DNA from: Sphingopyxis sp. BSN-002 | Lineage (GTDB): Bacteria; Pseudomonadota; Alphaproteobacteria; Sphingomonadales; Sphingomonadaceae | Length of the DNA: 64,000 bases | Direction of reading: 5' to 3' | NCBI RefSeq assembly: GCF_022024275.1 | Contig: NZ_CP091804.1 | Coordinates: 2,002,501 to 2,066,500 of the forward strand | Shown: in pieces, positions 28,763 to 44,934 of the stretch | How positions within the stretch are numbered: position 1 is the first letter of the stretch | Layout: every line of letters begins with the position of its first letter | The notes under the pieces: model-generated | What the model saw: only the letters and a program-made list of their open reading frames with translations | Databases searched by the model: none | What the model was told of the DNA's origin: nothing | Made by a program: the position numbers and the translations under genes

Positions 28763-29278
28763 ATGAGGCGTAACCGGGTGTGGACGAAATACGGCATCGC
28801 GCTGCCGCTGATGCTCGCGATGGCCGGCTGTACCGCCGTGCCGAAACCGCAGGCACCGCCGCCCGAGCGCCCGACTCCCGCACCGGTACCGCCCCCCGCG
28901 CCGGCGCCTGCCCCGACCCCGACGGGGTCGTGGGAGGATCGCCCGGTCGACCGCGGCGCATGGCGCTATGACGCGGGGAGCCGCGTCGCCAGCTTCGTCC
29001 AGACCGGCAATCCCGGCCCGTTGCTGACGATGGCGTGCAGCGGCGGCAACATCCGCCTGACCTCCGCACTGGAGGGCAATGTCTCGCTGCGCACCAGCGC
29101 GGGGACCGACCAGCTTCGCTTCGACGGCGGCGCCGCGAACGTGCCGAGCCGCGACATCCGCCTCGACCGCATCGCCTTCAGCCGCGGCCGCTTCGCGCTC
29201 GAGGCGCCGGGCGGCAGGGGGCTGACGCTACCGGTCCAGTCGGAAATCGGCCGCGTGATCGAGGATTGCCGGGGGTAA
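28763..29278 (+). CDS. Hypothetical lipoprotein
   Basis: A 171-residue predicted lipoprotein. The signal sequence ends with the lipobox LAMAGC, placing the lipidated Cys at 23. A linker of alternating Pro and Ala (about 28-54) separates it from a C-terminal domain of about 115 residues rich in short beta-strand patterns (VSLRTSAGTDQLRFDGGAA). The gene starts two bases after the nitroreductase stop. The fold resembles small DUF-type periplasmic domains found in sphingomonads; no function can be assigned. Confidence 0.75.
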   Translation: MRRNRVWTKYGIALPLMLAMAGCTAVPKPQAPPPERPTPAPVPPPAPAPAPTPTGSWEDRPVDRGAWRYDAGSRVASFVQTGNPGPLLTMACSGGNIRLTSALEGNVSLRTSAGTDQLRFDGGAANVPSRDIRLDRIAFSRGRFALEAPGGRGLTLPVQSEIGRVIEDCRG

Positions 29279-36378: not shown

Positions 36379-36852
36379 ATGGCCGACCATCCGCGATCGA
36401 AGGGGCTTTCAAGCGCCGTCTGCTACAAGGACAGCAAGGCGGCGTTCCGCTGGCTGGAGCAGGCGTTCGGGTTCGAACCCGTCTTCGCGCTGCTCGATGC
36501 CGACGGCAATCTGGCGCACAGCGAAATGGAATATGGCAATTCGACGATCATGATCGGCAACGAATGGTCCGACGATCACCGCAGCCCCGCGAACCTCGGC
36601 GGCAAGAACACGCAGACGGTGCATGTCCAGCTCGGCACGGGCGAGGACATCGACGCGCATTGTGAAAAGGCGCGTGCCGCGGGCGCCGCCATCATCGCCG
36701 AACCCGAAACCCAATTCTATGGCGACCGCACCTACCGCGCAAAGGACCCCGAGGGGCATATCTGGACCTTCGGCGTCACGGTCGAGGAAAAGACCGCCGA
36801 CGAATGGGACGCCGAGGGCGGCTTCACCACGAAGACGCGGCTCGACGATTGA
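36379..36852 (+). CDS. VOC-family protein (glyoxalase/bleomycin resistance fold)
   Basis: A 157-residue protein with paired beta-alpha-beta3 modules of the vicinal oxygen chelate superfamily. CYKDSKAAFRWLEQAFGFEPV begins module one. The segment TYRAKDPEGHIWTFG near the C-terminus is typical of the PhnB-like subgroup; Glu and His residues there could bind metal. Its stop overlaps the TTG start of the ArsR gene, so the three genes from 36379 to 37639 form one operon. Function unknown; an antibiotic-binding or stress role is possible. Confidence 0.88.
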   Translation: MADHPRSKGLSSAVCYKDSKAAFRWLEQAFGFEPVFALLDADGNLAHSEMEYGNSTIMIGNEWSDDHRSPANLGGKNTQTVHVQLGTGEDIDAHCEKARAAGAAIIAEPETQFYGDRTYRAKDPEGHIWTFGVTVEEKTADEWDAEGGFTTKTRLDD

Positions 36853-37175
36853 GCGGCGCGGTCGACCGGATACTCGGCGCGCTCGCCGATCCGGTGCGGC
36901 GGCGCGCCGTCGAACTGCTCGGACAGCGTCCGCGCAGCGCCGGAGAGCTTGCAGGCGAGCTTGGCCTCGCGCCGCCCGCGATGAGCCGGCATCTGCGCGC
37001 GCTGAAGGAAGGCGGGCTGGTCGAGGACGGGCACCCGCCTTTCGACGCGCGCGTCCGCATCTATTCGCTGAAGGACGGCGCGACCGACGAGCTGAAGCGC
37101 TGGATCGCCGAGACCGAGGCGCGCTGGGCGCATCAGCTCGCGGGGTTCAAGGCGCATGTCGAGGGCGGCAAATGA
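36849..37175 (+). CDS. ArsR-family transcriptional repressor
   Basis: A 108-residue winged helix-turn-helix protein. The TTG start overlaps the VOC stop (TTGA). The DNA-binding domain reads ILGALADPVRRRAVELLGQRPRSAGELAGELGL followed by PPAMSRHLRALKEGGLV, then the wing. No metal-binding CxC motif is present, so this is the metal-independent group often paired with SRPBCC/AHSA1 proteins, as here. It probably represses its own operon through the repeat at 36315. Confidence 0.9.
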   Translation: MSGAVDRILGALADPVRRRAVELLGQRPRSAGELAGELGLAPPAMSRHLRALKEGGLVEDGHPPFDARVRIYSLKDGATDELKRWIAETEARWAHQLAGFKAHVEGGK

Positions 37176-37639
37176 GCGCGGCGGTGATCGTCGCGCTGCG
37201 CGTTGCGGCCACGCCGCAGGCGGCGTTTGCGGCCTTCACGGATGAAATCGGGCGCTGGTGGAAAAGCCATCCGCTCTTCCCCCTGTCGCCGAAGGGCGAC
37301 GGGGTGCTGCGCTTCGACCCCGCAGGGCCCGACGGGCGGCTGGTGACGCGCTTCGACGATGGCGAGGAATGGGAGATCGGGCCGGTGCGCCACTGGCTGC
37401 CGGGCGAGCGGCTGACCTTCGGCTGGCGTCTGCCGAGCTTCGCCGCGGATCAGGCGACCGAGGTCGATGTGCGCTTCGAGGCGGTCGGCACCGAAACGCG
37501 CGTGACCGTCGAGCATCGCGGCTGGGACATGATCCCGAAGCAACATGCCGCACGCCACGGCTTCGAGCTGATGCTGTTCCAGCGGCGGCTGGGCGAACAT
37601 TGGCGGGGGTTGCTGAAGGAGATGGCCAAGGCGAGCTGA
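37172..37639 (+). CDS. SRPBCC/AHSA1-family protein
   Basis: A 155-residue START-like ligand-binding protein of the AHSA1 group. FAAFTDEIGRWWKSHPLF, LVTRFDDGEEWEIGPV and the C-terminal helix with LGEHWRGLLKEMA are typical. ATG overlaps the ArsR stop. This pair (ArsR plus SRPBCC) is common, and the SRPBCC domain presumably binds a hydrophobic ligand. No ligand can be named. Confidence 0.88.
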   Translation: MSAAVIVALRVAATPQAAFAAFTDEIGRWWKSHPLFPLSPKGDGVLRFDPAGPDGRLVTRFDDGEEWEIGPVRHWLPGERLTFGWRLPSFAADQATEVDVRFEAVGTETRVTVEHRGWDMIPKQHAARHGFELMLFQRRLGEHWRGLLKEMAKAS

Positions 37640-37678: not shown

Positions 37679-40087
37679 ATGGTCCTCCCCGCCCCCTTTG
37701 CCGATTGGTTCGCCGCGCGCGGGTGGCGGCTGCGGCGGCATCAGGCCGAGATGCTGGTCGCGGGGCGGCGCGGCGAAAGCGCCCTGCTCGTCGCCGCAAC
37801 CGGGGCCGGCAAGACGCTGTCGGGGTTCCTGCCGACGCTGGTCGATCTTGCCGAACATCCGACCGACCGGCTGCACACGCTCTATGTGTCACCGCTGAAG
37901 GCGCTGGCGGCGGACGTCGAGCGCAACCTGCTCGGCCCGATCGCCGACATGGGCCTCGACATCAGCGTCGAGAGCCGCAGCGGCGACACGAGTTCGGACA
38001 AGAAGGCGCGTCAGCGCAGCCGGCCGCCGAACATCTTGCTCACCACCCCCGAATCGCTGTCGCTGCTGCTCTCCTACCCCGACAGTTTCGCGATGTTCGC
38101 AGACCTGAAGACCGTCGTGATCGACGAGATCCACGCCTTTGCGCCGGGCAAGCGCGGCGACCTGCTGAGCCTCGCGATGGCGCGGCTCGGGCAGATTGCG
38201 CCGGACCTTCGCCGTGTGGGCCTGTCGGCGACGATCGCCGATCCGCTGCAATATGCGGCGTGGCTCGCACCCGACGCCGATGCCGGCAAGGTCACGCTGG
38301 TCGAGGGAGAGGCCGGCGCCGAACCCGACATCCGGATCTTGCTGCCCGAGGGCGCAGTGCCGTGGGCGGGCCATTCGGGCCGCTATGCGGTGCACCAGGT
38401 GATGGAGGTCGTCGCGGCGAACCGCACCACGATCATCTTCTGCAACACGCGCGGGCTTGCCGAGCTGATCTTTCAGGAGCTGTGGAAGGTCAACGACCTC
38501 AGCCTGCCGATCGCGATCCATCACGGCAGCCTCGACCGCGAGGCGCGCCAGCGCGCCGAAGCGGCGATGGCGGAGGGGCGGCTGCGCGCGCTCGTCGCGA
38601 CGGCGAGCCTCGATCTGGGCCTCGACTGGGGCGACGTCGACTGCGTGATCCAGATGGGTGCCCCGAAGGGATCGTCGCGGCTGCTCCAGCGCATCGGCCG
38701 CGCAAACCACCGCCTCGACGAGCCGAGCAAGGCGCTGATCGTGCCGGGCAACCGCTTCGAATATCTGGAAGCGCGCGCGGCGCTCGATGCGGTCGAGGCC
38801 GGCGAGCGCGATGCCGACCGCTTCCGCCCCGGCGCCCTCGACGTGCTGGCGCAGCATGTGATGGCGCTCGCCTGCGCCGCGCCGTTCGACGAAGCCGAAC
38901 TGCTGACCGAGATTCGCAGCGCCGCGCCATACCGGTGGATCGACGCCGAAACCTTCGGCCGCCTGCTCGGTTTCGTGCGCGACGGCGGCTATGCACTCAA
39001 AAGCTATGACCGCTTTCGCCGCCTTGCCCCCGACGGACAGGGGCGCTGGCGGATCGCGCATCCGCGGATCGCGGCGCAGCACCGGCTCAATGCCGGGATC
39101 ATCGTCGAGGCGCCGATGGCCGACGTGCGCTTCCGGAACGGGCGGCGGCTCGGCAAGGTCGAGGAATATTTCGCGAGCACGCTGACGCCGGGCGACACTT
39201 TCGCCTTTGCGGGGCTCAGCCTCGAGGTCGAGTCGATCCGCGACACCGACCTGATCGTCCGGGCGACGACGCGGCCCGCGCGCATTCCGAGCTATATGGG
39301 CGCGCGCATGGCGCTGACGACGCGGCTCGCCGACCGGGTGCGCGGCTTCCTGGCCGACCCCGAAAGCTGGCAGCGTTTTCCCGAGGATGTGCGGTTCTGG
39401 CTGGAGATGCAGGCGCTCCGTTCGGCGCTGCCCCGCCCCGGCGAACTGCTGGTCGAAACCTTCCCGCACGAGGGCCATCATTATCTCGTCTGCTATCCGT
39501 TCGAGGGCTGGAACGCGCACCAGTCGCTCGGCATGCTGATCACCAAGCGGATGGAGCGCGCGGGCATGCAGCCGCTGGGCTTCGTCGCATCGGACTATGC
39601 GATCGCGATCTGGTCGTTGCGTCCGGTGACCCGGCCCGAAGGCCTGTTCGACGCCGAGATCCTGTCGGACGAGTTCGTCGAATGGGTCGAATCGTCGCAC
39701 CTGCTGAAGCGTGCGTTCCGCGAGGTCGCGGTGATCGGCGGGCTGATCGAGCGCCAGCATCCGGGCAAGCGCAAATCGGGCAAGCAGGTGACCTTTTCGA
39801 CCGACCTGATCTTCGACGTGCTGCGCAAATACGAGCCCGATCATCTGCTGCTCGAGGCGGCGTGGGCCGATGCGCGCGAACGGCTGACCGACGTCGCACG
39901 GCTCGGCGATCTGCTCGACCGCGCGGCGGGAACGATGCTTCACCGGACGCTCGACCGGATCAGCCCGCTCGCCATCCCCGTTCTGGTGCTGATCGGACGC
40001 GAAAATGTCGCCGCAGCCGACATCGACGACGCGCTGCTCGGCGAACTCGCGGATACGCTGGCGGAGGAGGCGATGCGTCCCGATTGA
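37679..40087 (+). CDS. Ligase-associated DEXH-box helicase (Lhr type)
   Basis: An 802-residue SF2 helicase. Motif I is AATGAGKT (about 40-47), motif II DEIH (about 149), motif III VGLSATIAD, and motif VI RLLQRIGRANHRL; the Lhr-core/WH region fills the rest and the C-terminus ends with the DUF4968-like MLHRTLDRISPLAIPVLVLIG. This is the ligase-associated DNA damage response helicase that, with an ATP-dependent ligase, an exonuclease and PdeM, forms a known four-gene set. Only the PdeM partner is in this window, one gene downstream. Confidence 0.92.
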   Translation: MVLPAPFADWFAARGWRLRRHQAEMLVAGRRGESALLVAATGAGKTLSGFLPTLVDLAEHPTDRLHTLYVSPLKALAADVERNLLGPIADMGLDISVESRSGDTSSDKKARQRSRPPNILLTTPESLSLLLSYPDSFAMFADLKTVVIDEIHAFAPGKRGDLLSLAMARLGQIAPDLRRVGLSATIADPLQYAAWLAPDADAGKVTLVEGEAGAEPDIRILLPEGAVPWAGHSGRYAVHQVMEVVAANRTTIIFCNTRGLAELIFQELWKVNDLSLPIAIHHGSLDREARQRAEAAMAEGRLRALVATASLDLGLDWGDVDCVIQMGAPKGSSRLLQRIGRANHRLDEPSKALIVPGNRFEYLEARAALDAVEAGERDADRFRPGALDVLAQHVMALACAAPFDEAELLTEIRSAAPYRWIDAETFGRLLGFVRDGGYALKSYDRFRRLAPDGQGRWRIAHPRIAAQHRLNAGIIVEAPMADVRFRNGRRLGKVEEYFASTLTPGDTFAFAGLSLEVESIRDTDLIVRATTRPARIPSYMGARMALTTRLADRVRGFLADPESWQRFPEDVRFWLEMQALRSALPRPGELLVETFPHEGHHYLVCYPFEGWNAHQSLGMLITKRMERAGMQPLGFVASDYAIAIWSLRPVTRPEGLFDAEILSDEFVEWVESSHLLKRAFREVAVIGGLIERQHPGKRKSGKQVTFSTDLIFDVLRKYEPDHLLLEAAWADARERLTDVARLGDLLDRAAGTMLHRTLDRISPLAIPVLVLIGRENVAAADIDDALLGELADTLAEEAMRPD

Positions 40088-40173
40088 CGCCGGCGCTGTA
40101 ACCGGCGTTTCGCTTGCCGCGAACCGCGATGAGGCGTAGATTGGCGCAAAATATACAGAGGAGGGATGCTGCG

Positions 40174-41214
40174 ATGACCCATATCCTGAAGCGGTCGGCT
40201 CCATTGGCGCTGCTGCTCGCAGCACCGCTGCTGACCGGCGCATCCCAGCCTCCCGCGCCTGCCCCGACACCAGCGCCCGCCGCCCCCGCGACCCCGCCCG
40301 CCGACGCGATCGCCCCGCCGGTCACCGTCACCCCCTTCATCCAGCCGTTCGATCTCGACGCGACGCAGCGCATGTCGGTCAAGGTCATGGTCGGCGAGAA
40401 GGGGCCTTTCTCCTTTCTGGTCGATACCGGCGCCGAACGCACCGTCATCTCGCGCGAACTCGCCGAGCGGCTGAACCTCGCCGAAGGCGGCAAGCTGCGG
40501 ATGGCGACGATCGGCAGCTCGACGCTGGTGCCGAGCTATCGCGTCGCGACGCTGCGCATGTCCGACCTCCATCTCGCGGGCTTCGATGCGCCGGCGCTGT
40601 TCGGCCGTCACATCGGCGCGGCAGGACTGATCGGGGTCGACATGCTGGAGGAGCGGCGCGTCCTCATCGATTTCCGCAAGCAGAGCATGCAGATTCTCGA
40701 AACGCGCAAACGCGCGGCGCCGATCATCCGCGACGACGACGCGATCGTCGTGACCGCGCGCAATTCGGCGGGGCGCCTGATCCTGTCCGACGCGCGCCTC
40801 AACGGCAAGCGCATCGACGTCATCGTCGATACCGGCGCGCAGACGAGCGTCGGCAATCTGGCGCTGCAAAAGCTGGTCGCCGACCGGCGCGCGAACCGCT
40901 TTCCCTTCGTCCCGACCGAGCTCGGCGCGGTAACCGGCGAGACGGTTCCGGCAATGCGCACCGCGATCAAGCGCATCGTGATCAACGGGATGGACGTCAA
41001 CGACCTGTCGGTAAGCTTTGCCGACAGCCAGGCCTTTCGCGCGCTCGGCCTGAACGAGCGGCCGGCGCTGCTGCTCGGCATGGACAGCCTCGCTCTGTTC
41101 GACCGGGTCGAGATCGATTTTCCCAACAAGCGCGTCGTCTTCGACCTGCCCGACCGCGCCGACCGCGACACGAAGCTTCGCTTCGCCGCAAATCTGGCGG
41201 TTCGCGGCGGCTAG
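40174..41214 (+). CDS. Secreted tandem retropepsin-like aspartyl protease
   Basis: A 346-residue protein with a signal peptide, a Pro/Ala-rich linker (about 25-52) and two retropepsin-like domains. Each has its own catalytic triplet: FLVDTGAERTVIS with Asp84 and VIVDTGAQTSVGN with Asp219. Each half also has a late hydrophobic-Gly strand (AGLIGVDML, ALLLGMDSL). Retropepsins normally dimerise to pair two Asp; this chain could form its site internally. AGGAGGG lies eight bases before the ATG at 40174. It sits between the helicase and PdeM genes. Confidence 0.85.
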   Translation: MTHILKRSAPLALLLAAPLLTGASQPPAPAPTPAPAAPATPPADAIAPPVTVTPFIQPFDLDATQRMSVKVMVGEKGPFSFLVDTGAERTVISRELAERLNLAEGGKLRMATIGSSTLVPSYRVATLRMSDLHLAGFDAPALFGRHIGAAGLIGVDMLEERRVLIDFRKQSMQILETRKRAAPIIRDDDAIVVTARNSAGRLILSDARLNGKRIDVIVDTGAQTSVGNLALQKLVADRRANRFPFVPTELGAVTGETVPAMRTAIKRIVINGMDVNDLSVSFADSQAFRALGLNERPALLLGMDSLALFDRVEIDFPNKRVVFDLPDRADRDTKLRFAANLAVRGG

Positions 41215-41254: not shown

Positions 41255-41959
41255 GTGACCCGCGCCGCGACCTTCGACTTTGCGGGCCAGCAATTCCATA
41301 TGCTGGCCGACCGGGCGCTGTTCTGGCCGCGCCACGCGGCGCTGATAGTTGCCGACCTGCACCTTGAAAAGGCGAGCTGGTACGCTGCGCACGGCCAGCC
41401 GCTGCCGCCCTATGACAGTCACGATACGCTCGACCGGCTGGCGGCGCTCGCTTCCGAAACCGGCGCGCGCGCGATCTGGTGCCTCGGCGACAGCTTTCAC
41501 GACCGCGATGCCGCGGCCCGGATCGTCCCCGCGGTCGCCGAACGGCTGCACGAACAGGCGGCACTCACCCGATTCCTGTGGATTGCGGGCAATCACGACG
41601 GGCTGACGGCGGGAGCATGGGGAGGCGAGGTTGCCGACGAACGGGTCGTCGACGGCATCGTCTTTCGCCACCAGAGCCTCGCGCACGAAACGCGTCCCGA
41701 AGTTTCGGGGCATTTCCATCCGAAGCTCAGGCTGTCGCTGCGCGGACGGCTCGTCTCGCGCCCCTGTTTCGCAGGTGACGCACAGCGGTTGATCCTGCCC
41801 GCCTTCGGCAGCCTGACCGGCGGACTGGCATGCGAAGACCCCGTGATCGGTGAAAATTTTCCGGGGCCGTACAGCGCGATGCTCGTCGCGCGCGGGCGCG
41901 TGCTCGCGGTGCCGTGCGCGAATGACGCTACGGCAAGTCGCAAGGCCGCCGCGCGCTGA
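41255..41959 (+). CDS. pdeM: Ligase-associated DNA damage response endonuclease PdeM
   Basis: A 234-residue calcineurin-like phosphoesterase. Metal motifs appear in order: IVADLHLEKAS, CLGDSFHDRD, IAGNHDG and VSGHFHPK. These fit the PdeM family, small nucleases linked to the ligase-associated DNA repair set. GTG start, no clear upstream ATG. It lies 40 bp after the retropepsin gene and about 1.2 kb after the helicase, so the usual adjacency is broken by one insertion. Confidence 0.88.
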   Translation: MTRAATFDFAGQQFHMLADRALFWPRHAALIVADLHLEKASWYAAHGQPLPPYDSHDTLDRLAALASETGARAIWCLGDSFHDRDAAARIVPAVAERLHEQAALTRFLWIAGNHDGLTAGAWGGEVADERVVDGIVFRHQSLAHETRPEVSGHFHPKLRLSLRGRLVSRPCFAGDAQRLILPAFGSLTGGLACEDPVIGENFPGPYSAMLVARGRVLAVPCANDATASRKAAAR

Positions 41960-42129
41960 CGCAAGGCGGGCCGCCACAGGCGGGCCTTTCCTGTGACCAA
42001 AAAGCCTCACCCCCTGAAAAATGATGCAAAAACGGCGCAAACGGGCGTTCCGTGCGCTTTCGCGGCGGAGCAATTTCGATATGTTCGGCGGGCAACAAAA
42101 ATAATGAAATGTTGAGAGGAGTGCCCACC

Positions 42130-44934
42130 ATGAAATCATCTTCCCTTCCGGCTGCGCGATTTATGCGCAGCACCGCGCTTGGCGTATCGCTCGCCATCGC
42201 AACGATCGCGGTTCCGGCCTTTGCACAGGATGCGGCCGACACCGATACCGCCGACGACAGCGGCAACAGCGAAATCGTCGTCACCGCCCAGGGCCGCGCG
42301 CAGCGGCTGGCCGACGTTCCGGTCGCGATCTCGGCCGTCAGTTCCGAAACGCTGCAGAACAGCGGCGCGAACGACATTCGCCAGCTGAACCAGGTCGCGC
42401 CGTCGCTGCTCGTCTCCTCGACCGGTTCGGAAGCAAACGGCTCGGCGCGTATCCGCGGCATCGGTACGGTCGGCGACAACCCCGGCCTCGAAAGCTCGGT
42501 CCCGGTCTTCATCGACGGCGTCTATCGTTCGCGTTCGGGCATCGGCCTCAACGAACTCGGCGAACTCGACCGCATCGAGGTCCAGCGCGGCCCGCAGGGC
42601 ACGCTCGGCGGCCGCAACTCGTCGGCGGGTCTGATCAGCATCTATTCGAAAAAGCCCGACTTTACCTTCGGCGCCACGGGCGAGATCACCTATGGCAATT
42701 ATGATTACTGGCGCCTCGGCGGCAGCGTCACCGGCCCGATCAGCGACACGCTCGCCGCGCGCCTCGACGGCGTCTGGGTGAAGCGCGACGGCTTCCTGCG
42801 CGACACGGTCAACGGCCGCGACGTCAACAACCGCGACCGCTATTTCCTGCGCGGCCAGCTCCTGTTCGAGCCGACCGACGCGCTGTCGGTCCGCCTGATC
42901 GCCGACTATACCTACCGCGACGAGGAATGCTGCGGCGCGACCTATGTCAGCCAGTCGGTCAATCCGTACATCGGCAACCTCAACAATCCGAGCACCGTCG
43001 GCGTCGCACCGACCGCGACGACGAACAACATCGTCAACGTGCTGCGCGATCTCGGCCAGCCGCTCGCGGCGTTCAACCAGGGTTATGACCGCAACATCTC
43101 GGTCAGCCCCGGTCGCAGCTTCGCCGGCCAGACCAAGGACTACGGCTTCTCGGGCCAGATCGACTATGATCTGGGCGGCGCGAAGCTGACCTCGATCACC
43201 GCCTATCGCGAATATCGCTCGGGCCAGGCCGGCGACGTCGACTATAACCAGGTCGACATCCTCTATCGCGCGCCGAGCGACGACAGCTATCGCCAGTTCC
43301 ACACCTTCACCCAGGAACTGCGCCTGCAGGGCGAAGCCTTCGACGGCAAGCTCGACTGGCTCGTCGGCGGCTTCTACGCCAACGAAAAGCTGCGCGTGCG
43401 CGACAACCTCCGCTTCGGGACGCAGTACGGCCGCTTCGCGACCTGCCGCATCATCTCGGGCGGCGGCCTTGCCGGTCTCTATTCGCCGACCAACCCGCTG
43501 TGCGTCGCACCGGGCGTCGGTCCGGCGACGATCGCGGGCGCCAGCGGCGCATCGGGTCCGGATATCGTCGCGGCCTTCACCGCGCTCGACGGGCTCAGCG
43601 ACAAGGGCAGCATCGACGACCAGTACGCCCAGAACGGCAAGAACTGGGCGCTGTTCACGCACAATATCTTCCACATCACCGACAAGCTCGATTTCACCTT
43701 CGGCCTGCGGTACACCAACGACAAGAAGAAGTTCGCCGCGACCTTCACCAACGACAACACGGTCTGCACCACGGTGCAAGGTCTGGTCCTCGACGATCTG
43801 TCGAGCACCAACGCGACCGCGCGCGCGCTGGCGGGCGGCCTGATCGGCCTTGCCTGTCAGGGCAACTCGACCGCCGAGCTGAACAACGTCTCGATCAACG
43901 ACAAGCGGAGCGAGGACGAGTTCACCGGCACGGCGATCCTGTCGTACAAGCCCGTCGACGACCTGATGGTCTATGCGAGCTATTCGCGCGGCTACAAGGC
44001 GGGCGGCTTCAACCTCGACCGCTCGGCGCTGAAGTCGCCGATCCTGCCGTTCGCGGCGACCCCGGGCGGCGCACAGGCGCTGGTCGGCAACCTGCAGTTC
44101 GATCCGGAAACGGTGAACAGCTACGAACTCGGCGCCAAATATGCGACGGGTCCGTTCAGCCTCGGCCTCACCCTGTTCCGTTCGGACTTCTCGAGCTTCC
44201 AGCTGAACACGTTCAACGGCACGGTCTTCCTCGTGCAGAACGTCAACGGCTGTTCGAGCAGCCTTGGCGGGGGCGACCGCGACCAGAGCAAGTTCACCGG
44301 CGCGCCGAATTATAATGCGGCGGCGGCGACCACGGGCGCCTGCCCGTCGGGCGACGTCGGCTATGGTGTCCGGTCGGAAGGCTTCGAACTCGAAGCCTCG
44401 CTGGTTCCGGCACCGAGCTTCCGCATGACTGCGGGCCTGACCTATGCGAACACCAAATATCGCGGTCAGCTGGTCGGCAACAAGTCGGGCGCTCCGCTCG
44501 ATCAGGCGCTCCGCCTGCTTCCCGGCAACAATCTGTCGAACGCGCCCGAACTGGTCGCGACCGGCAGCGTCGCCTGGACGCCCGACATCGGCAGCAGCGG
44601 CCTGACCGGCCTCGTCTATATCGATGGCCGCATGACCAGCGATTACAACACCGGTTCGGACCTGTTCCCGCAGAAGGGACAGGACGGCTATGCGATCTTC
44701 AACGCACGCGTCGGCGTTCGCGGCCCCGACGAGAAATGGGGCATCGAATTCTGGGCGCAGAACCTGTTCAACAAGCAATATGCACAGGTCGCGTTCAACT
44801 CGCCGTTCCAGGAAGGCGGCACCTCGACCGGCACCGCCTTCGCCGATCCGCAATATCCGGGCGGCCGCCAGCTCTTCTCGCAGTTCCTTGCCGAACCGCG
44901 GACCTATGGCGTGACGCTGCGCGGCAAGTTCTGA
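42130..44934 (+). CDS. TonB-dependent outer-membrane receptor
   Basis: A 934-residue receptor. ATG at 42130 follows GAGAGGAG at eight bases; the signal peptide ends AVPAFAQ. The TonB box is SEIVVTAQ, and the plug has LADVPVAISAVSSETLQ, GIGTVGDNPGLESSVPVFIDG and IEVQRGPQGTLGGRNSS. The barrel ends RTYGVTLRGKF. The IEVQRGPQGTLGG form is common in sphingomonad receptors for plant-derived or aromatic compounds, but the substrate cannot be deduced; no transporter or enzyme gene accompanies it. Confidence 0.94.
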   Translation: MKSSSLPAARFMRSTALGVSLAIATIAVPAFAQDAADTDTADDSGNSEIVVTAQGRAQRLADVPVAISAVSSETLQNSGANDIRQLNQVAPSLLVSSTGSEANGSARIRGIGTVGDNPGLESSVPVFIDGVYRSRSGIGLNELGELDRIEVQRGPQGTLGGRNSSAGLISIYSKKPDFTFGATGEITYGNYDYWRLGGSVTGPISDTLAARLDGVWVKRDGFLRDTVNGRDVNNRDRYFLRGQLLFEPTDALSVRLIADYTYRDEECCGATYVSQSVNPYIGNLNNPSTVGVAPTATTNNIVNVLRDLGQPLAAFNQGYDRNISVSPGRSFAGQTKDYGFSGQIDYDLGGAKLTSITAYREYRSGQAGDVDYNQVDILYRAPSDDSYRQFHTFTQELRLQGEAFDGKLDWLVGGFYANEKLRVRDNLRFGTQYGRFATCRIISGGGLAGLYSPTNPLCVAPGVGPATIAGASGASGPDIVAAFTALDGLSDKGSIDDQYAQNGKNWALFTHNIFHITDKLDFTFGLRYTNDKKKFAATFTNDNTVCTTVQGLVLDDLSSTNATARALAGGLIGLACQGNSTAELNNVSINDKRSEDEFTGTAILSYKPVDDLMVYASYSRGYKAGGFNLDRSALKSPILPFAATPGGAQALVGNLQFDPETVNSYELGAKYATGPFSLGLTLFRSDFSSFQLNTFNGTVFLVQNVNGCSSSLGGGDRDQSKFTGAPNYNAAAATTGACPSGDVGYGVRSEGFELEASLVPAPSFRMTAGLTYANTKYRGQLVGNKSGAPLDQALRLLPGNNLSNAPELVATGSVAWTPDIGSSGLTGLVYIDGRMTSDYNTGSDLFPQKGQDGYAIFNARVGVRGPDEKWGIEFWAQNLFNKQYAQVAFNSPFQEGGTSTGTAFADPQYPGGRQLFSQFLAEPRTYGVTLRGKF

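Follow-up and report, generated by a model that had tools for sequence, protein, structure and literature searches.

A natural single-chain ("tethered-dimer") retropepsin-type aspartic protease is probably encoded in the analyzed window, that is, in the whole stretch of 64,000 nt from Sphingopyxis sp. BSN-002. Following export via Sec, the two halves of the protein would pack together about a pseudo-twofold axis, so that D84 and D219 would come together and activate one water, and one flap per half would close over the substrate. General acid–base catalysis by an Asp pair is the mechanism of clan AA proteases, and here it would be carried out by D84/D219. As one complete site would be formed within the chain, no partner molecule would be needed, and the halves could specialize, as in pepsin; such a protein could be a retropepsin with concentration-independent activity. 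Its place is likely the periplasm, where it would likely cleave an envelope protein or peptide.

The two-motif exported layout is present in the PDB (entry 9iy9), hence proteins of this kind are already known. Added here are the sphingomonad family, the asymmetry of its halves and its possible history, as well as a helicase–protease–PdeM gene order in part of the family.

Domain layout and family membership

The reading frame is open, starts with ATG and encodes 346 aa; its features are summarized in Table 1. An alternative TTG start at 40114 was rejected because the ribosome-binding-site-like motif stands before 40174. The N-terminus is Sec-signal-like, with a hydropathy peak of 1.83 over residues 9–23; the protein has no Cys and therefore no lipobox, and we infer that it is exported via Sec. 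A promoter scan yielded no site, and the two terminator-like sites found are both within the gene.

Table 1. Features of the protease gene and its immediate neighbors (window coordinates).
Feature	Position	Strand	Basis
Gene of the two-domain retropepsin-like protein	40174..41214	+	ORF, 346 aa + stop, signal-like start
AGGAGGG, ribosome-binding-site-like	40159..40165	+	sequence; 8 bases between motif and ATG
Signal-peptide-like N-terminus, about residues 1–24	40174..40245	+	hydropathy peak; similar N-termini in relatives; boundary by eye
Pro/Ala-rich linker, poorly conserved	40246..40341	+	alignment of relatives
Domain 1, retropepsin type, about residues 62–178	40357..40707	+	PF13650 best stretch, residues 69–156; conservation
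DTGA, residues 84–87, domain 1 catalytic motif	40423..40434	+	D84 in 73/73 rows
LIG, residues 152–154, domain 1 psi-loop hydrophobic-hydrophobic-Gly	40627..40635	+	G154 in 73/73 rows
Short inter-domain junction, residues 168–190	40675..40743	+	20–23 residues in 73/73 rows
Domain 2, retropepsin type, about residues 188–326	40735..41151	+	second PF13650 stretch; fold match Z 11.2 to 5c9f
DTGA, residues 219–222, domain 2 catalytic motif	40828..40839	+	D219 in 73/73 rows
LLG, residues 300–302, domain 2 psi-loop motif	41071..41079	+	G302 in 73/73 rows
Upstream neighbor, ligase-associated DEXH box helicase	37679..40087	+	TIGR04121, 1062.7 bits vs. cut-off 850
Downstream neighbor, ligase-associated endonuclease PdeM	41255..41959	+	TIGR04123, 221.4 bits vs. 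cut-off 150

The first-pass annotation had claimed two DTGA motifs, at Asp84 and Asp219, in one exported protein, and the motifs are indeed present there and nowhere else in the protein. When the protein was shuffled 20,000 times, two DTGA motifs appeared in one shuffled sequence and two DTG motifs in 93. The presence of two retropepsin-type domains behind a signal-like start in one chain is likewise supported, by two profile stretches and the hydropathy peak. Both PF13650 (E 8.5e-23, 81.3 bits vs. the cut-off of 24.3) and PF13975 (E 1.1e-22, 80.8 bits vs. the cut-off of 28.2) match the protein in two stretches. Each half has the retropepsin order of elements, that is, hydrophobic strand, DTGA, flap region and hydrophobic-hydrophobic-Gly, and the DTG with the downstream hydrophobic-hydrophobic-Gly in each domain places the protein among the Asp_protease_2 / retropepsin-type proteins. 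It scores 35 bits with TIGR02281, a clan AA family with the cut-off of 57.95, and thus stays outside this family. It is also outside the MEROPS A2-like definition (single-domain chain, activity as a homodimer only), having two domains in the chain, and may work like an A2-like retropepsin with the dimer built in.

Direct comparison of domain 1 with domain 2 by hhalign, in which DTGA is aligned with DTGA, shows that they are homologous (probability 96.4%, E 1.1e-9; 102 columns with 23% identity).

Conservation of the aspartate pair and predicted structure

Conservation was analyzed in an alignment of 73 rows, comprising the window protein, 29 family loci and 43 Sphingopyxis-level loci; 72 of the sequences are distinct, many of them close Sphingopyxis-level ones and 27 (L005–L031) from other genera. 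By the sphingomonad family we mean the family of the window's genome, which we take to be GTDB Sphingomonadaceae; in the NCBI taxonomy Sphingopyxis is an alphaproteobacterium of the order Sphingomonadales, family Sphingopyxidaceae. The closest relatives among named records, 64–86% identical, mostly come from Sphingopyxis.

D84, D219, G154 and G302 are invariant in all 73 rows. The domain 1 motif is DTGA in 66 rows, DTGS in five, and DTSA and DSGA in one each; the domain 2 motif is DTGA in 59 rows, DTGS in nine, DTGT in four and DSGA in one. The distance from the conserved DF of domain 1 to Ile191 of domain 2 is 20–23 residues in every row, and a junction of this length should be enough to tether a retropepsin dimer.

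More distant relatives reveal asymmetry of the halves. Twenty-three such proteins were picked from search matches because two domains were found in them, leaving out one-domain matches, duplicate entries for a locus and weakly matching two-hit proteins (e.g., L101, L103, L136, L138), so that the set is biased toward proteins keeping both motifs. Both catalytic aspartates are kept in all 23. At the third motif position, domain 1 has Ala (11 proteins), Gly (11) or Ser (one), the motif being DTA (often), DSA or DTS in 12 of the 23; in domain 2 the third residue is Gly in all of them, and the second is Thr (11), Ser (9) or Leu (3). The psi-loop Gly is kept in 22 proteins in domain 1 and in 21 in domain 2. 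Such retention of the Asp pair despite the drift of one motif would be expected of halves contributing one Asp each to a common site. Still, some of these proteins have a damaged-looking half: L085 and L086 have DLG in domain 2 and Asn in place of the psi-loop Gly, L089 combines DTA with DLG, and L083 has DTA in domain 1 with Pro replacing the psi-loop Gly. Therefore, not every member of the group need be an enzyme.

Two AlphaFold models were built from alignments of close relatives only (69–92% identical), and both are of low confidence (mean pLDDT 52.0 and pTM 0.46 for model 1; 55.6 and 0.52 for model 2). No ten-residue block of domain 1 reaches a pLDDT of 70 in model 2, and the one with D84 averages 37. 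Domain 2 is the better-modeled half: it has the retropepsin fold, matching Rickettsia APRc (5c9f) with Z 11.2 over 121 residues at 3.4 Å, and in model 1 it matches HIV protease over the 99 residues of the latter with Z 10.1–10.5.

The first three Foldseek matches of model 2 are 1lv1, 4qlh and 3kt2, that is, 198-residue single-chain HIV protease dimers, aligned over 247–249 columns with target TM 0.50–0.51; the Foldseek rmsd of tethered dimers to this model is 5.8–10.3 Å. Lone 99-residue HIV monomers have TM 0.64–0.72, and such a fit of a single half would, by our estimate, correspond to about 0.35 on 198 residues. In VIA-align, the tethered dimer 1g6l is superposed on model 2 with 165 residues at 3.4 Å (rank 36, Z 10.4), spanning model residues 22–264 (protein residues 79–321) and hence both halves; this is the one both-halves match among the best 50 VIA-align rows for model 2, and there is none among the best 50 for model 1. 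In the Foldseek list of model 1, 9iy9 is in the third place (276 columns, target TM 0.36, rmsd 6.8), with 1hvc, another tethered dimer, in the tenth. Pepsins are absent from the best 50 Foldseek and VIA-align rows of both models, which excludes nothing. It may also be that the network has learnt how HIV dimers are arranged.

The low-confidence models thus favor, with moderate support, the placement of D84 and D219 in one shared intrachain cleft. The idea of the first-pass annotation that a pepsin-like site forms within the chain is favored by the kept Asp pair, the 20–23 residue junction and the match of these weak models to tethered HIV dimers, and is likely rather than certain; two independent folds with no shared cleft, named there as the contrary outcome, were not obtained, in models too weak to exclude them.

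Among known proteins, the closest in layout is 9iy9, a Bacteroides fragilis "Exported protein" / putative endopeptidase released in 2025. This chain, also called exported, has two DTG motifs and two Gly-Met-Asp psi-loop-like motifs in the alignments, and matches the sphingomonad family profile with E 1.7e-8. It differs in its length of 420 residues, about 15% identity and an extra N-terminal part, and only its first retropepsin domain is well matched by sequence, to sphingomonad domain 2. No paper on 9iy9 or on tandem bacterial retropepsins was among the matches listed in a search of the open-licence PMC literature, nor was any work on the function of the sphingomonad family. The tethered HIV-1 protease dimers (1lv1, 3kt2, 1g6l, 1hvc) likewise have two retropepsin domains per chain, but are laboratory constructs with near-identical halves, whereas the sphingomonad halves occur naturally and share 23% identity.

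APRc/RC1339 of Rickettsia, RloA of Pseudomonas and PerP of Caulobacter (the latter as cited in a passage of PMC4140852) are also bacterial retropepsin-type proteins, exported or membrane-bound. Unlike the sphingomonad protein, APRc and RloA are single-domain chains, for which dimers have been reported, based on cross-linking for APRc (excerpt of PMC4140852) and on the crystal structure and light scattering for RloA (excerpt of PMC12239564), although the APRc crystal is described as having no canonical dimer (excerpt of PMC11313796). DTG and LLG motifs are also described, in an excerpt of PMC6982040, for Amuc_1434 of Akkermansia.

Gene neighborhood and alternative explanations

The protease gene starts 86 bases after the helicase gene and ends 40 bases before the PdeM gene, and the three genes are possibly co-transcribed. 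A TonB-dependent receptor gene (42052–44934) is directly behind PdeM and has a match in 42 of the 43 Sphingopyxis-level loci. Just upstream of the helicase gene, at 36804–37639, there is an ArsR-type regulator followed by an overlapping ORF, presumably SRPBCC-like.

We also searched for other partners in 14 regions of 8.5–12 kb, taken from 14 of the 85 genomes where the protease gene is away from both neighbors. A cluster with an ABC transporter representative (L154) was found in seven of these regions, one of its members (L146) being about 4 kb off. A cluster found in 12 regions was rejected: its representative is on the strand opposite to the protease gene and overlaps it, and was taken as a shadow of this gene.

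The position between the helicase and PdeM genes might suggest that the protease belongs to the ligase-associated DNA repair set. With linkage defined as at most 6 kb from start to start on the same strand, the helicase is upstream in 31 of the 117 genomes with the protease gene, PdeM is downstream in 25, both are in place in 24 and either of them in 32. At the Sphingopyxis level, 38 of the 43 loci have a helicase match and 42 have a PdeM match; four of the six misses are contig ends, and two loci (L054, L064) have sequence there without a helicase match. Against this, the gene is away from both neighbors in the remaining 85 genomes, and of the 42 genomes (out of 135 having both) in which no more than 7 kb separates the helicase and PdeM genes, 22 have the protease gene nearby, 16 have it elsewhere and four lack it. 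Moreover, a protein with an export signal is not expected to meet cytoplasmic repair enzymes, and the ligase and exonuclease genes of the same set are found together about 985 kb away in this genome, the set being split in two. A role in repair is thus largely refuted and highly improbable, and we attribute the linkage to inherited gene order rather than to a repair function. Homology with true pepsins (family A1), bacterial ones of which have been reported (excerpt of PMC2761423), is scarcely credible, even though pepsins, bacterial ones included, also have one chain, two lobes and two DTG motifs, with one Asp from each lobe. The A1 profile is absent among the four Pfam matches obtained up to E 0.1, vs. 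retropepsin-type families at 1e-22. Sequence similarity is still recognizable between the sphingomonad halves, but between pepsin lobes it is confined to the motifs, and signal peptides are said to be absent from bacterial A1 proteins (both according to the same excerpt).

Two further explanations accept the retropepsin-type fold. Each domain could pair with the same domain of a second molecule, yielding a chain dimer with two separate retropepsin sites; the single-domain precedents, APRc (with the reservation about its crystal) and RloA, and the full motif set kept by each sphingomonad domain agree with this. However, a domain 1 homodimer would carry two altered motifs in the 12 of 23 distant relatives where this domain is changed, as opposed to D-x-G being kept in domain 2 of all 23; the short junction should favor pairing within the chain; and model 2 fits a tethered dimer. 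We consider such pairing quite unlikely. It is also unlikely, on balance, that the protein is not a protease and that its fold is used for binding or as a scaffold in the periplasm, which would be compatible with an intrachain pseudo-dimer. We have found no reported activity for any member encountered; the changed third residue of domain 1 in 12 of 23 relatives and the lack of a psi-loop Gly in L083, L085 and L086 point in the same direction. On the contrary, the conservation of both aspartates in all 23 relatives and of the psi-loop glycines in 22 and 21, together with the invariance of all four residues within the family, is the pattern of a working pair, and in the window protein itself both sites are DTGA.

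Distribution and possible origin of the two-domain form

The protease gene was found in 117 of 149 family genomes at E ≤ 1e-10, the other 32 having no match. In a sample of the class, 18 of 240 genomes match the profile at E ≤ 1e-8, three of them from the same family, and some of the matching genomes carry tandem copies of the gene; adjacent copies of the two-domain gene are seen at L078, L079 and L080, where the first two loci have DTA in domain 1 and DSG in domain 2. In the phylum sample PF13650 is present in 78 of 120 genomes, with many matches in frames of about 180–270 aa. Two matches in one frame (E ≤ 1e-5, read by eye) are observed in just six genomes (G000, G041, G091, G210, G466, G491). 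Thus the double form, although common in the family, makes up a minority across the phylum. The claim that such a protein is unusual in bacteria is right in part only, given its frequency in the sphingomonad family, the six genomes of the phylum sample and the same two-motif layout in B. fragilis 9iy9. Single-domain prokaryotic clan AA proteins have been noted previously (excerpt of PMC2642776), and a superfamily survey, as excerpted from PMC11313796, distinguishes four families, the pepsin-like one being two-domain. A search of viral contigs for relatives gave 100 pattern matches, none of which was confirmed.

The domain tree was built from 25 first domains, 25 second domains and 20 single-domain proteins, chosen for spread and not as a full set (130 columns, unrooted). 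A branch (92/69, not starred) separates all second domains from the rest, and another (95/93, starred) does so for all single-domain proteins. First domains are not separated in this way (two changes; united in 24% of bootstrap trees) and lie between the second domains and the single-domain proteins; seven end branches are long. The tree is compatible with one old duplication behind both domains.

Pepsin is thought to have arisen by a step turning a retropepsin homodimer into a single-chain enzyme. The alphaproteobacterial family may be an independent natural replay of this step, with an old duplication and fusion of a retropepsin converting the homodimer into a single chain and the halves drifting afterwards, DTA being allowed in the N-terminal half and Gly kept in the C-terminal one. 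We offer this reading tentatively, at somewhat below even chances; if it is true, the rise of asymmetry could be traced step by step. A widespread family with still-similar halves provides material to test how asymmetry arises once a dimer is tied.

In the window, a weak second match of the same genome (E 0.0087, near 28799–29164) is an ORF without a Pfam match and was dropped. Elsewhere in this genome (L105, C1:3421400–3422400), there is a single-domain retropepsin-like ORF of 184 aa with a DSGAS motif.
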